This document shows positions 5,778 through 9,408 of a stretch of DNA of 12,120 bases, one piece after another (position 1 is the stretch's first letter; the number at the start of each line of letters is the position of its first letter). Under the pieces are notes generated by a model, which did not search any database, was not told the origin of the DNA, and saw only the letters and a list, made by a program, of their open reading frames with translations. The position numbers and the translations under genes were made by a program. Source of the DNA: Thermococcus sp. (GTDB lineage Archaea; Methanobacteriota_B; Thermococci; Thermococcales; Thermococcaceae); the NCBI GenBank assembly GCA_021157445.1, contig JAGGWM010000045.1, positions 1 to 12,120 on the forward strand, written 5' to 3'.

Positions 5778-6151
5778 CGCTTTCTATGCCTTTCGTACCA
5801 TCCCCACTCTTTTTTGCTTCCAAAACTTCTTACTCCCTCTTTTACAAGCTTTATTCTGAGCTCCTTGGCCAGCTCGGAAGTTATCTCACCATGCTCTTCC
5901 ATCCAGTTGATAATCTCCAAGGCCTCTTCATCGGTCTCGCATCTTCTTATGAAGTCAATAACCGTTGGGTTGTATCCAGAAAAATCCATTGATTCCTCTT
6001 CCTTCTCTTCTACTCGGTATCCTTCAATAACAAGCCCGGGCTTTTCCTCAAGCTCTCTAGCTAGATGAGGATATTTCTCTTCAAATTCCTCCTTATCATA
6101 TTCCTGCCAAGGGAACTCATCAATGGGACGTTTTTTCTTTTTATCTGTCAT
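5774..6151 (-). CDS. DUF2095-type archaeal protein, unknown function
   Basis: A 125-residue soluble, very charged protein ([36 protein letters not shown]...). It resembles the archaeal uncharacterised family DUF2095. The N-terminal third is acidic and probably extended. Residues about 58-110 hold two or three helices ([46 protein letters not shown]) that could be helix-turn-helix-like, and the tail is aromatic and basic ([13 protein letters not shown]). The frame is open to a GTG at 6160, but ATG 6151 is preferred because GAGGTG then sits 6 nt upstream. It converges on the AMP phosphorylase gene with overlapping stops (CTAG). No function can be assigned. Confidence 0.8.
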
Positions 6152-6189
6152 ATTGGGCACCTCGTTTCAAATTCTACTCTGTTGGTCTG

Positions 6190-6200
6190 CTTTATATACT
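6190..6200 (-). promoter_or_regulatory. TATA box for the DUF2095 gene
   Basis: On the minus strand AGTATATAAAG is a near-consensus archaeal TATA box. A start about 25 bp downstream falls near 6170, leaving a leader that carries GAGGTG ahead of the ATG at 6151. It lies back to back with the TATA box at 6224-6233 on the other strand. Confidence 0.6.
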
Positions 6201-6223
6201 TTGTTGCTTTGCCCTTGCAAAGG

Positions 6224-6233
6224 GCTTATATAT
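6224..6233 (+). promoter_or_regulatory. TATA box of the GIY-YIG/GGGP synthase unit
   Basis: GCTTATATATC is a strong archaeal TATA box whose centre is about 25 bp before the ATG at 6254. Transcription should therefore start at or within a few bases of the start codon, giving a leaderless or nearly leaderless mRNA. No purine-rich ribosome binding site precedes the ATG (CGATCTCCAAAC), in agreement. Confidence 0.65.
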
Positions 6234-6253
6234 CTTCTCATCGATCTCCAAAC

Positions 6254-6715
6254 ATGAGAGGCTCATATTTTCTCGTGATCTATTTAGATAGGGATACAAA
6301 AATAAAAACAAAAGCCAAAGAGTTTTGTTTGAAGAAGGGGTATTACATCTACGTCGGCTCCGCCATGAATTTCCTTGAAAAAAGAGTTGCAAGGCATTTT
6401 AAAAAAGAGAAACGCCTTCACTGGCACATTGATTTTCTTCTTCAAAAAGCACAGCTTTTGAGTGCTTATTTAATACCCAGCAGGGAGAGGATTGAGGAAA
6501 CACTTTCTCGGATTGTAGGAGAGGTTTTTCAGGGGGTTGAGGGCTTTGGGGCGAGCGATCTTAGCGTAAAGACAAATTTATACTACTCTATGCATCCCCC
6601 AGATGAAACAATATGTAACATCTTAAACTCAAAAGGCCTTAGTTGGAAAAGGGTTAAAAGTCCAAAAGAGATTATGGATTGGAGGGAAGAGAATGTTGAG
6701 GATAGGGAAAGTTGA
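6254..6715 (+). CDS. DUF123-type GIY-YIG superfamily protein
   Basis: A 153-residue protein of the archaeal/bacterial DUF123 group, a GIY-YIG nuclease-fold family. The signature is GYYIYVGSAM at 29-38. A basic helix with RVARHFKK follows at 44-51, then HWHIDFLL at 56-63, a DUF123 hallmark, and Glu81/Glu82 in RIEETL as candidate metal ligand. Many family members continue with a Cys-containing GFGxSDCxCxSHLFY segment; here it reads GFGASDLSVKTNLYY (97-111), so the usual Cys and His are absent. The open frame continues upstream to 6065, but the TATA position and the family start at MRGSYFLVIYL support ATG 6254. The 3' end overlaps the GGGP synthase gene by 23 nt, so the two are co-transcribed. 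Nuclease activity is possible but unproven in the family. Confidence 0.85.
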   Translation: MRGSYFLVIYLDRDTKIKTKAKEFCLKKGYYIYVGSAMNFLEKRVARHFKKEKRLHWHIDFLLQKAQLLSAYLIPSRERIEETLSRIVGEVFQGVEGFGASDLSVKTNLYYSMHPPDETICNILNSKGLSWKRVKSPKEIMDWREENVEDRES

Positions 6716-7526: not shown

Positions 7527-8369
7527 ATGAAGGCTTTTATCTCCGTTGATTTGGAGGGGATGCCGTTCATAGTGAGCCCTCAGCATCTAGTGGAGAAAGG
7601 TGCCCTCTACAATGAAGCTCGAAAAATAGCCACAGAAATAACCTTAACAGCTGCAGACGCCCTTCATCGGGCTGGTTTTGGGGAGGTAGTGATAGCTGAT
7701 AGCCACGGTCCAATGGTGAACCTTCTTCCAGAGGAGCTTCCCGAATATGTTTATCTCGTTAGGGGATACCCAAGACCAGTTGCCATGATCGCTGGAGCTG
7801 AAAAATGCGATGTTGCGTTGTTCTTGGGCTATCACGCAAAGGCTGGAACTCCCTATGCGATTTTTGACCACACCTACAGTGGCGCAAACGTTGGTAAGCT
7901 TGAACTAAACGGCATTGAGGTTAGTGAATTCCTTCTAAACGGCTATGCTGTGGGTCATTTTAACATACCGGTAATCCTCGTTGGTGGAGATGAAAAGCTC
8001 CTCGAGGAGGACGTGAAAAGTTTCACCCCATGGGCAGAGAGAATAGCGTTCAAGAGAGCCTTTTCACGTTATTCCGCTATAAGCCCAAGCCTGAAGAAAA
8101 TAAAGACAGACCTTGAGAACGCGGTCTTTAAGGCCGTTGAAAAATACAAAAAAGGCGAAACAAAGCCTTTAAAGCTTGAATATCCCGTTAGGGTAAGACT
8201 CACCTACAACAACAGCGGCATGGCGGACGTTGGAGAGCTTCTCCCTGGAGCAAGAAGAATGGATGGAAAGACAATAGAGTTTGAAGCAAAAGATATTATC
8301 GAGGCATACAAAGCATTTCAGCTACTGGTGTTTGCTGCCACAGGAGTTACCTCAATACTCCGGCGTTAG
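7527..8369 (+). CDS. M55 family D-aminopeptidase, DppA-like
   Basis: A 280-residue zinc peptidase of the DppA family, about the same length as Bacillus subtilis DppA (274). Conserved active-site stretches are SVDLEG with Asp8 and Glu10, ADSHG with His60, GYHA with His103, FDHTYSG with His115, and a Glu at 131 or 134 in NGIEVSEF. These match the metal-binding and catalytic positions known from B. subtilis DppA. Family members remove N-terminal D-residues from short peptides and form rings of subunits; here a cytoplasmic peptide-salvage role is inferred. The open frame extends to 7503, but ATG 7527 has GGTGAT upstream and begins MKAFISVDLEG as in the family. Its stop overlaps that of the convergent 79-residue gene. 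No dipeptide transporter genes accompany it. Confidence 0.92.
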   Translation: MKAFISVDLEGMPFIVSPQHLVEKGALYNEARKIATEITLTAADALHRAGFGEVVIADSHGPMVNLLPEELPEYVYLVRGYPRPVAMIAGAEKCDVALFLGYHAKAGTPYAIFDHTYSGANVGKLELNGIEVSEFLLNGYAVGHFNIPVILVGGDEKLLEEDVKSFTPWAERIAFKRAFSRYSAISPSLKKIKTDLENAVFKAVEKYKKGETKPLKLEYPVRVRLTYNNSGMADVGELLPGARRMDGKTIEFEAKDIIEAYKAFQLLVFAATGVTSILRR

Positions 8370-8605
8370 GCCTCGCTCAAGACCTTGAAGCTGACTTTTC
8401 CGTCTCTCACTATCTTTTTGATATCTGCGAGGAGTTTTTGAACGTTCTCTTCTACAACTTCCATTCTTATTTCACTAACACCTTTGCTTGTGGGGGGCAA
8501 GAAGTGTATGTCCGTAAGTTTTCCTCTAACCTCGTTTAAAATTTTAGCCAAAACTTTTCCTCTTTTTTCATAGGGCAATTTTATGTCCAGTTCAACAACT
8601 TTCAT
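8366..8605 (-). CDS. Conserved small protein, unknown function
   Basis: A 79-residue protein, MKVVELDIKLPYEKRGKVLAKILNEV..., ending KVSFKVLSEA. The predicted order strand-helix-strand-strand-helix-strand (VVELDIKL, RGKVLAKILNEVRG, TDIHFLPP, SEIRMEVVE, NVQKLLADIKKIVRDG, KVSFKVL) fits a ferredoxin-like or ACT-like fold, which often serves as a regulatory or oligomerisation module. I recognise no named family. A GTG at 8614 would add three residues, but ATG 8605 is chosen because GGTGA then acts as ribosome binding site at normal distance. It stands alone, convergent with the D-aminopeptidase gene, with overlapping stop codons. Confidence 0.75.
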   Translation of the reverse strand: MKVVELDIKLPYEKRGKVLAKILNEVRGKLTDIHFLPPTSKGVSEIRMEVVEENVQKLLADIKKIVRDGKVSFKVLSEA

Positions 8606-8637
8606 AGCTGTCACCGTTTTATTTTAGAAAAGAAGCC

Positions 8638-8703: not shown

Positions 8704-8731
8704 AAGGTTTTTGATTTTTTCATCTAACTGT

Positions 8732-8806
8732 TAATGCCCCGGAGAAACCGCGGGGGATGAGCGAGTGGCGAGCCATGAGTCCCCTTCGCTCCTCCGGGGC
8801 ACACTC
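8732..8806 (+). ncRNA. Probable archaeal H/ACA guide RNA (rRNA pseudouridylation)
   Basis: A GC-rich island in an A/T-rich intergenic region. A 9-bp lower stem, GCCCCGGAG (8736-8744) with CTCCGGGGC (8792-8800), is followed directly by the box ACA (8801-8803). The internal loop has a 5' strand AAACCGC (8745-8751) and a 3' strand TCGCTC (8786-8791). The upper stem is GGGGGA (8752-8757) with TCCCCT (8780-8785, one G-U pair). Its top contains ATGAG on both sides (8757-8761, 8775-8779), giving the tandem G-A bases of a kink-turn or K-loop, the L7Ae site. The distance from the upper stem to ACA, 15-16 nt, is the family value. The pocket strands are complementary to GCGGUUU and GGAGC, which lie two bases apart in the conserved archaeal 16S stretch GGAGCCUGCGGUUUAAU. 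Exact target uridine is uncertain. The minus-strand reading lacks these matches. Confidence 0.75.
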
Positions 8807-9408
8807 TAAATGTTAATTAGCTTACGAATGTTTATCTTGAATTCATCTTTTTCCTCGATTGAGATAACCGCCGTTGCAATTTCCTCCATAATGGGCAAGA
8901 CTTCTGGAAGTGCTGACTTTATCAAATCTACGTTGATGAAGTAAAAGGTAATCCTCTTTTTGTTTCCTAGGTATTTTAGCATTCCATGTATGGTACTGAG
9001 GAAGTCTTTTCTATCGCTATAGAAAATAAAAAGCTTATCAAAGCCCAGTACTGGATTTATTATTTCGTCTTCGGACAATTTGCTGAAAATCTTGTCGTAT
9101 TCTCTCTCCAAAACTGCGCTCTCGGTTATTGAAATCTTCCCCAAGATGTTTCCTATCTTTATGTTTCCTCCCATCTTTATCACATTGAGATCGTTAAGAA
9201 GAGACGTATCTATTCCCGCAACCTCCATCTGGGCTTTGTACATATGGAGCGTGTCCAAGAAATCATCTACAAGGATTGGGTAATTCTTTTCCCTGCTCCA
9301 TTTTATAAGCTCGTGAAAGAGCAGATAAACTGGGGCTTTTGAGGAGTATTCCACTAGGACGGTTTCACCAAATTTTAGATCTTCCAGTATAGAAAGAAGG
9401 TTGCGCAC
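8806..9408 (-). CDS. DUF257 family protein (Thermococcales-specific), unknown function
   Basis: A 200-residue soluble protein resembling DUF257, a family known mostly from Pyrococcus and Thermococcus. It starts MRNLLSILEDLKFGETVLVEYSSKAPVYLLFHELIKW and has alternating strands and helices reminiscent of RecA-like KaiC domains (VLVDDFLDTLHMY, DKLFIFYSDRKDFLSTIHGML, KRITFYFINVDLI), but no Walker A motif, so ATP binding is unlikely. The start is GTG at 9408, with GGGGTGGT just upstream; no ATG offers a better site. The stop codon lies only 2 nt beyond the ACA box of the opposing guide RNA. TATA-like CATATAAAAG at 9433-9442 is at the right distance. No function is known to me. Confidence 0.82.
   Translation of the reverse strand: MRNLLSILEDLKFGETVLVEYSSKAPVYLLFHELIKWSREKNYPILVDDFLDTLHMYKAQMEVAGIDTSLLNDLNVIKMGGNIKIGNILGKISITESAVLEREYDKIFSKLSEDEIINPVLGFDKLFIFYSDRKDFLSTIHGMLKYLGNKKRITFYFINVDLIKSALPEVLPIMEEIATAVISIEEKDEFKINIRKLINI

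Follow-up and report, generated by a model that had tools for sequence, protein, structure and literature searches.

The closest described relatives of the RNA reported here are the archaeal box H/ACA RNAs Pab160 and Pf9. Pab160 has been characterized as a functional homologue of Pf9 (PMC3726423), and Pf9 in turn as an orthologue of Pa160; more generally, the H/ACA genes of Thermococcus are described as orthologous to those of Pyrococcus (PMC4652768). Pf9 is also the parent of the RNA in PDB entry 2RFK and, in part, of those in 3HJW and 3LWO (PMC4652768). Seven H/ACA RNAs of T. kodakarensis were verified by sequencing, in a passage that does not name Pab160 (PMC4247193).

The window analysed here is a stretch of 12,120 nucleotides from a Thermococcus assembly that is 61% complete and fragmented into 220 contigs. 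A sequence-only reading had placed an H/ACA guide RNA within 8732–8806, had thought that it might be equivalent to a known Pyrococcus H/ACA RNA, and had named a covariance-model search as one way to check this. That search (cmscan) matched 8736–8803 of the plus strand to Rfam family RF02796 (Pab160, box H/ACA RNA) over the full model (positions 1–68 of 68), with a score of 78 bits (E = 1.1e-12) against a gathering score of 47.4. The guide RNA is thus confirmed, and its Pyrococcus equivalent is Pab160, known as Pf9 in Pyrococcus furiosus. The element at 8736–8803 is an orthologue, in a Thermococcaceae archaeon, of this already known RNA, and every defining feature that was checked places it in the Pab160/Pf9 family. 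We put the probability at about 0.95 that it is a Pab160/Pf9 H/ACA guide RNA whose proposed target is the 16S rRNA uridine corresponding to P. abyssi 922. The remaining Rfam hits in the window (mir-245, NRON, DAOA-AS1_2, snoU82P, KCNQ1OT1_1, and RAGATH-8) all fell below their gathering scores and were set aside as chance.

The window RNA is as long as the Pab160 model (68 positions) and shares with it the two stems, the two guide strands, the kink-turn sequence, and the ACA; relative to the Rfam consensus it carries compensated changes in stem pairs and a different terminal loop. In an assembly this fragmented, the Pab160 gene found here might be imagined to be a copy in decay, but we regard that as scarcely credible: all nine lower and all seven upper stem pairs are intact, the guides and the ACA are unchanged, and 65 of the 68 bases are identical to those of the RNAs in genomes G074 and G075. 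Moreover, the site is the only RF02796 match in its own assembly, where 21 first-look candidates were scored.

In the numbering used below, window position 8736 is position 1 of the RNA and all features lie on the plus strand. The RF02796 match delimits the complete RNA, from the lower stem through the ACA. Its lower stem (RNA positions 1–9 with 57–65) is formed by 8736–8744 and 8792–8800, with all nine pairs made; both strands are supported by sequence, Rfam, and covariation, and the 5′ strand by the computed fold as well. The ACA box (8801–8803; positions 66–68), identified by sequence, follows the stem directly. The upper stem (17–23 with 44–50) joins 8752–8758 to 8779–8785 by seven pairs; Rfam and covariation support both strands and folding also supports the 5′ strand. 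Between the two stems lies an asymmetric pocket, drawn from sequence and the Rfam structure, with AAACCGC on the 5′ side (8745–8751; positions 10–16) and UCGCUC on the 3′ side (8786–8791; positions 51–56). By the target scan described below, the 5′ guide proper is AAACCG (8745–8750) and the 3′ guide is CGCUC (8787–8791). The last base of the 5′ pocket, a C next to the upper stem (8751; position 16), varies among homologues and is read as unpaired with the substrate. The sequence-only reading had described the same layout, that is, a lower stem of 9 bp, an asymmetric pocket, an upper stem, and an ACA straight after the lower stem, in the canonical archaeal single-hairpin arrangement with a kink-turn or K-loop; each of these is present, with a kink-turn sequence, as is the ATGAG that it had seen on both strands (8757–8761 and 8775–8779). 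It had counted 15–16 nucleotides from upper stem to ACA. By the Rfam structure the distance is 15, or 14 if the C·U layer 8751/8786 is joined to the stem, in keeping with the rule of 14–15 nucleotides from the closing pair of the upper stem to the ACA in archaeal H/ACA RNAs (PMC4652768). Pf9 belongs to subfamily 65, defined by a 6-nt 5′ guide and a 5-nt 3′ guide (PMC4652768); the guides of the window RNA have the same 6 + 5 lengths if the C·U layer is assigned to the upper stem, the orthology with Pf9 being as reported.

The RNA is flanked by two minus-strand genes: one for an 82-aa protein (8366–8614), whose transcription leads away from the RNA, and a DUF257 gene (8806–9408), which in turn lies between the RNA and a gene for a Hef-type helicase. 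Only two bases separate the ACA from the DUF257 stop codon (8806–8808). Such a position, just past the end of a convergent gene, together with the strength and GC-richness of the hairpin, would fit a terminator or mRNA-end hairpin of the DUF257 gene with no separate RNA. That explanation is extremely improbable in light of the comparative evidence. On the plus strand, homologues preserve the asymmetric pocket, the kink-turn sequence, and the ACA; the guide bases do not vary, and a terminator would require only the stems; and of 50 loci with the RNA, just 9 had a detected DUF257 gene. It was not detected at two loci of the same genus (L062 and L071). Neighbours were sought by tblastn (E value of 1e-5, flanks of up to 2.5 kb). 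One or more of five window genes (those for the Hef-type helicase, the 82-aa ORF, a peptidase of family M55, a PcrB-type synthase, and DUF257) was found near the RNA in 46 of the 50 loci, with such genes on both sides in 27 and none in 4. The guide RNA may have a promoter in a TATA-like candidate, TTTTTGA (8708–8714, plus strand), 22–28 nucleotides before its start; a T-rich element of four or five T followed by G occurs at a similar distance in 10 of 10 congeners among those listed.

Several features of the surroundings can be recorded separately. The 82-aa protein has no Pfam match and was picked up close to the RNA in 36 of the 50 loci; a scan of genome contigs for related loci with the 82-aa neighbour returned one, in the metagenome-assembled genome Thermococcales archaeon 44_46. 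Elsewhere in the window, the first 88 residues of the ORF at 6065–6715 (plus strand) precede its DUF123 domain and overlap a DUF2095 gene on the opposite strand; the true start of this ORF is probably further in.

Under stricter filters, RF02796 matches were found in 85 of 94 Thermococcaceae genomes, in 72 of the 74 of good quality, and in all six genera. A search of the phylum, also under stricter filters (115 genomes), returned 85, all of them in Thermococcaceae. Two Thermococcaceae genomes that are 99% complete (G035 and G055) gave no RF02796 match under these filters, which may reflect loss, divergence, or a miss by the filters. In a control set of 14 genomes, one, that of M. jannaschii, matched the family. 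One genome (G068), from an assembly listed at 6% contamination, had two Pab160 matches, the second akin to that of G001 (genus g2).

Covariation was assessed on 86 homologues. One of these (G050), in which a contig end cuts the RNA, was removed, and the remaining 85 were collapsed to 59 distinct sequences. Pairs were counted by position from fixed anchors, namely the conserved guide motifs themselves, because a MAFFT alignment of 28 of the 59 distinct full-length homologues set the gaps of rows with a shorter 5′ arm at the 5′ terminus and so lost the pairing register. In the lower stem 509 of 531 cells were standard pairs, and in 34 cells both sides had changed; 17 of the 22 unpaired cells fell at the innermost pair, pair 9. 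In the upper stem 388 of 413 cells were paired, with 56 two-sided changes, and all 25 unpaired cells fell at pair 7, which adjoins the kink-turn. The exchanges occurred at several pairs and included C-G to G-C and G-C to A-U. For neither stem did any of 500 shuffles attain the observed values, a count that ignores relatedness and hence is not a probability. The compensatory change across relatives that had been proposed as a check on the hairpin is seen in both stems, and with such exchanges it can hardly be doubted that selection maintains them.

In all 86 homologues ACCG of the 5′ guide (positions 12–15) and CGCTCC on the 3′ side (positions 52–57) are identical. The ACA is present in 85, and the remaining homologue is cut by a contig end. 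Position 16 is variable (75 homologues have C, 9 have T, and one each has A or G). A variant 5′ guide was observed at nine loci (L074, L075, L076, L080, L081, L090–L092, and L095; seven in genus g5, one in g6, and one in g2), in which the first A of the guide is replaced by C (CAACCG), with TGACCG at L095; these same nine have T at position 16 and an unchanged 3′ guide.

The segment 8725–8815 folds more stably than expected (z = −3.41), and 1 of 200 shuffles was equally stable. A strict descriptor was composed of a 9-bp stem directly before ACA, a pocket, an upper stem of at least 6 bp, and a tandem GA. On the plus strand of the window it found a single place, the site of the RNA; it found none on the minus strand and none in 40 resampled windows of one strand each.

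The kink-turn sequence and terminal loop, the presumed L7Ae site, occupy 8759–8778, as judged from sequence and from conservation among homologues. From sequence, this segment offers potential tandem G·A pairs (8759–8760 with 8777–8778; positions 24–25 with 42–43), two G-C pairs (8761–8762 with 8772–8773; positions 26–27 with 37–38), and a 3-nt bulge, CAT in the DNA and CAU in the RNA (8774–8776; positions 39–41), a combination that fits a published description of the kink-turn (PMC7991803). Among the 59 distinct homologues, tandem pairs of the G·A/A·G type occur in 51 and the two G-C/C-G pairs in 56, and the last base of the bulge is U in all 59. In the minimum-energy fold of the free RNA the kink-turn is replaced by a 4-bp hairpin (30–33 with 38–41), and two extra pairs (14–53 and 15–52) partly shut the pocket; the open form with its two G-C pairs is 5.1 kcal/mol less stable, a value in which the G·A pairs were left out of the scoring. 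We gave conservation more weight than the energy fold because energy models omit protein-bound kink-turns. Binding of L7Ae to Pab160 alters its lead-cleavage pattern and increases cleavage in pocket strand s2 (PMC3726423). The increase in s2 would fit the opening of a closed pocket form upon L7Ae binding, as we interpret it.

A target for the guide was sought in rRNA. Neither 16S nor 23S rRNA was found in the assembly that contains the window (the 16S having been sought by both pattern and family), and the target was read in the 16S rRNAs of nine congeners. All nine contain GGAGCG-UG-CGGUUU. On this sequence AAACCG pairs with CGGUUU, 3′ of the target dinucleotide, over 6 bp, and CGCUC pairs with GAGCG, 5′ of it, over 5 bp, leaving UG unpaired with no mismatch; in 9 of 9 cases this is the arrangement of a UN-dinucleotide H/ACA target. 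The 6 + 5 site is the only full match in the nine 16S and four 23S rRNAs scanned, and in the two 16S and two 23S rRNAs shown in detail the next best guide scores were 7 and 8 of 11. When the guides were permuted and scored on one 16S and one 23S rRNA with G-U pairs allowed, 2 of 1000 reached a score of 11 and 40 of 1000 a score of 10. The chance of a full guide match is thus about 0.2%.

The segment of 16S rRNA is the one to which the sequence-only reading had pointed, and full pairing was found there in all nine congeners. The register of that reading did not hold. It had paired AAACCGC with GCGGUUU over 7 bp, with CU at the apex, and a UN apex would have called for a 6-bp 5′ duplex and a C-C mismatch, but the congeners have G rather than C before the target U (9 of 9), and the exact 16S pattern with C at this place was found in none of 94 family genomes, some of which are incomplete and may lack 16S rRNA. 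The difficulty arose because a 16S sequence unfit for this genus had been used. In the 7-bp register, position 16 of the RNA would pair with the G that follows the target U. That position 16 varies, with positions 12–15 and 52–57 fixed, speaks independently for UG as the dinucleotide left unpaired. The 7-bp register was therefore rejected, and the 6 + 5 pairing around UG is the likely one.

An H/ACA guide of this kind might have its main target, or an additional one, in 23S rRNA, tRNA, or mRNA; leuS mRNA has been predicted as a possible target of Pa160, and a pairing of Pa160 with L1318 has been mentioned (PMC4652768). At the 23S site at 1326 the 3′ guide of the window RNA matches in full, with the 5′ match broken. 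L1318 is, however, classed as an unmodified position (PMC4652768), and in the rRNAs scanned full pairing was confined to 16S position 904/905, the best 23S site in the two 23S rRNAs shown reaching 8 of 11. We accordingly judge a main or additional target elsewhere to be unlikely, and the 16S uridine is retained as the proposed target.

This uridine is U904/905 in the Rfam-trimmed numbering of the congeners. In P. abyssi 16S rRNA, m1Ψ938 and m5C939 have been reported (PMC7005279). The target lies 16 nucleotides before the congener uridine that, together with the C following it, is equal to m1Ψ938–m5C939, which places it at P. abyssi 922 (938 − 16). Position 938 corresponds to E. coli 966, and the target would then be E. 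coli 950. In 16S rRNA the target uridine would lie near the P-site loop. A pseudouridine without further modification would not be expected to show up in density. Position 922 is not mentioned in the text of PMC7005279. Position S922 of 16S rRNA is a named H/ACA target with two candidate guides, and counts given in the same paper imply that it is a modified site; redundantly guided sites include non-productive pairs (PMC4652768). Judged by numbering and pairing, Pab160 most likely guides pseudouridine formation at 16S 922.

The position has a probable counterpart in humans. If no insertion lies between 1232 and 1248 of human 18S rRNA, as we assume, the offset from m1acp3Ψ1248 makes Ψ1232 the equivalent rRNA position. 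Sources for this offset are Table 4 of PMC7005279 and PMC6182160, and human Ψ1232 is modified to 98% (PMC6182160). Unlike the archaeal sRNA here, the guide in humans is a eukaryotic snoRNA.

Most of the proteins needed for such a modification were found in the genome itself, which encodes Cbf5 (466 bits), Nop10 (96.5 bits), and Gar1 (35.9 bits), each above its cut-off. No L7Ae was found in the assembly, which is 61% complete. The sole PF01248 match was considered as L7Ae and rejected, since its scores identify it as ribosomal protein L30e (NF002172, the L30e model, gives 141.3 bits, and the L7Ae model gives 37.2 bits against a cut-off of 134.6). L7Ae may lie outside the assembled part or may have been missed. 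From established work on H/ACA RNAs, the proposed mode of action is as follows: L7Ae would bind the kink-turn, and Cbf5, Nop10, and Gar1 would contact the pocket, the lower stem, and the ACA; within the pocket, AAACCG would pair with CGGUUU and CGCUC with GAGCG of 16S rRNA; and Cbf5 would turn the unpaired U of UG into pseudouridine.

The locus adds one more orthologue to the family, along with a family-wide view of which guide bases stay fixed, and a reading from raw sequence alone is seen to have picked out a genuine H/ACA guide and the right segment of rRNA. The likely pairing register is settled, for a target whose human equivalent, judged by offset, is also a pseudouridine. The base 5′ of the target uridine is C in many other archaea and eukaryotes. 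In the nine congeners it is G, and the guide base facing it, C52, is the same in all 86 homologues. The two may represent a matched pair specific to this lineage, a tentative suggestion that we consider possible but would not favour. If it is true, guide and target would have changed together, and the pseudouridine at 922 (1232 in humans) would have been retained through lineage-specific guides.
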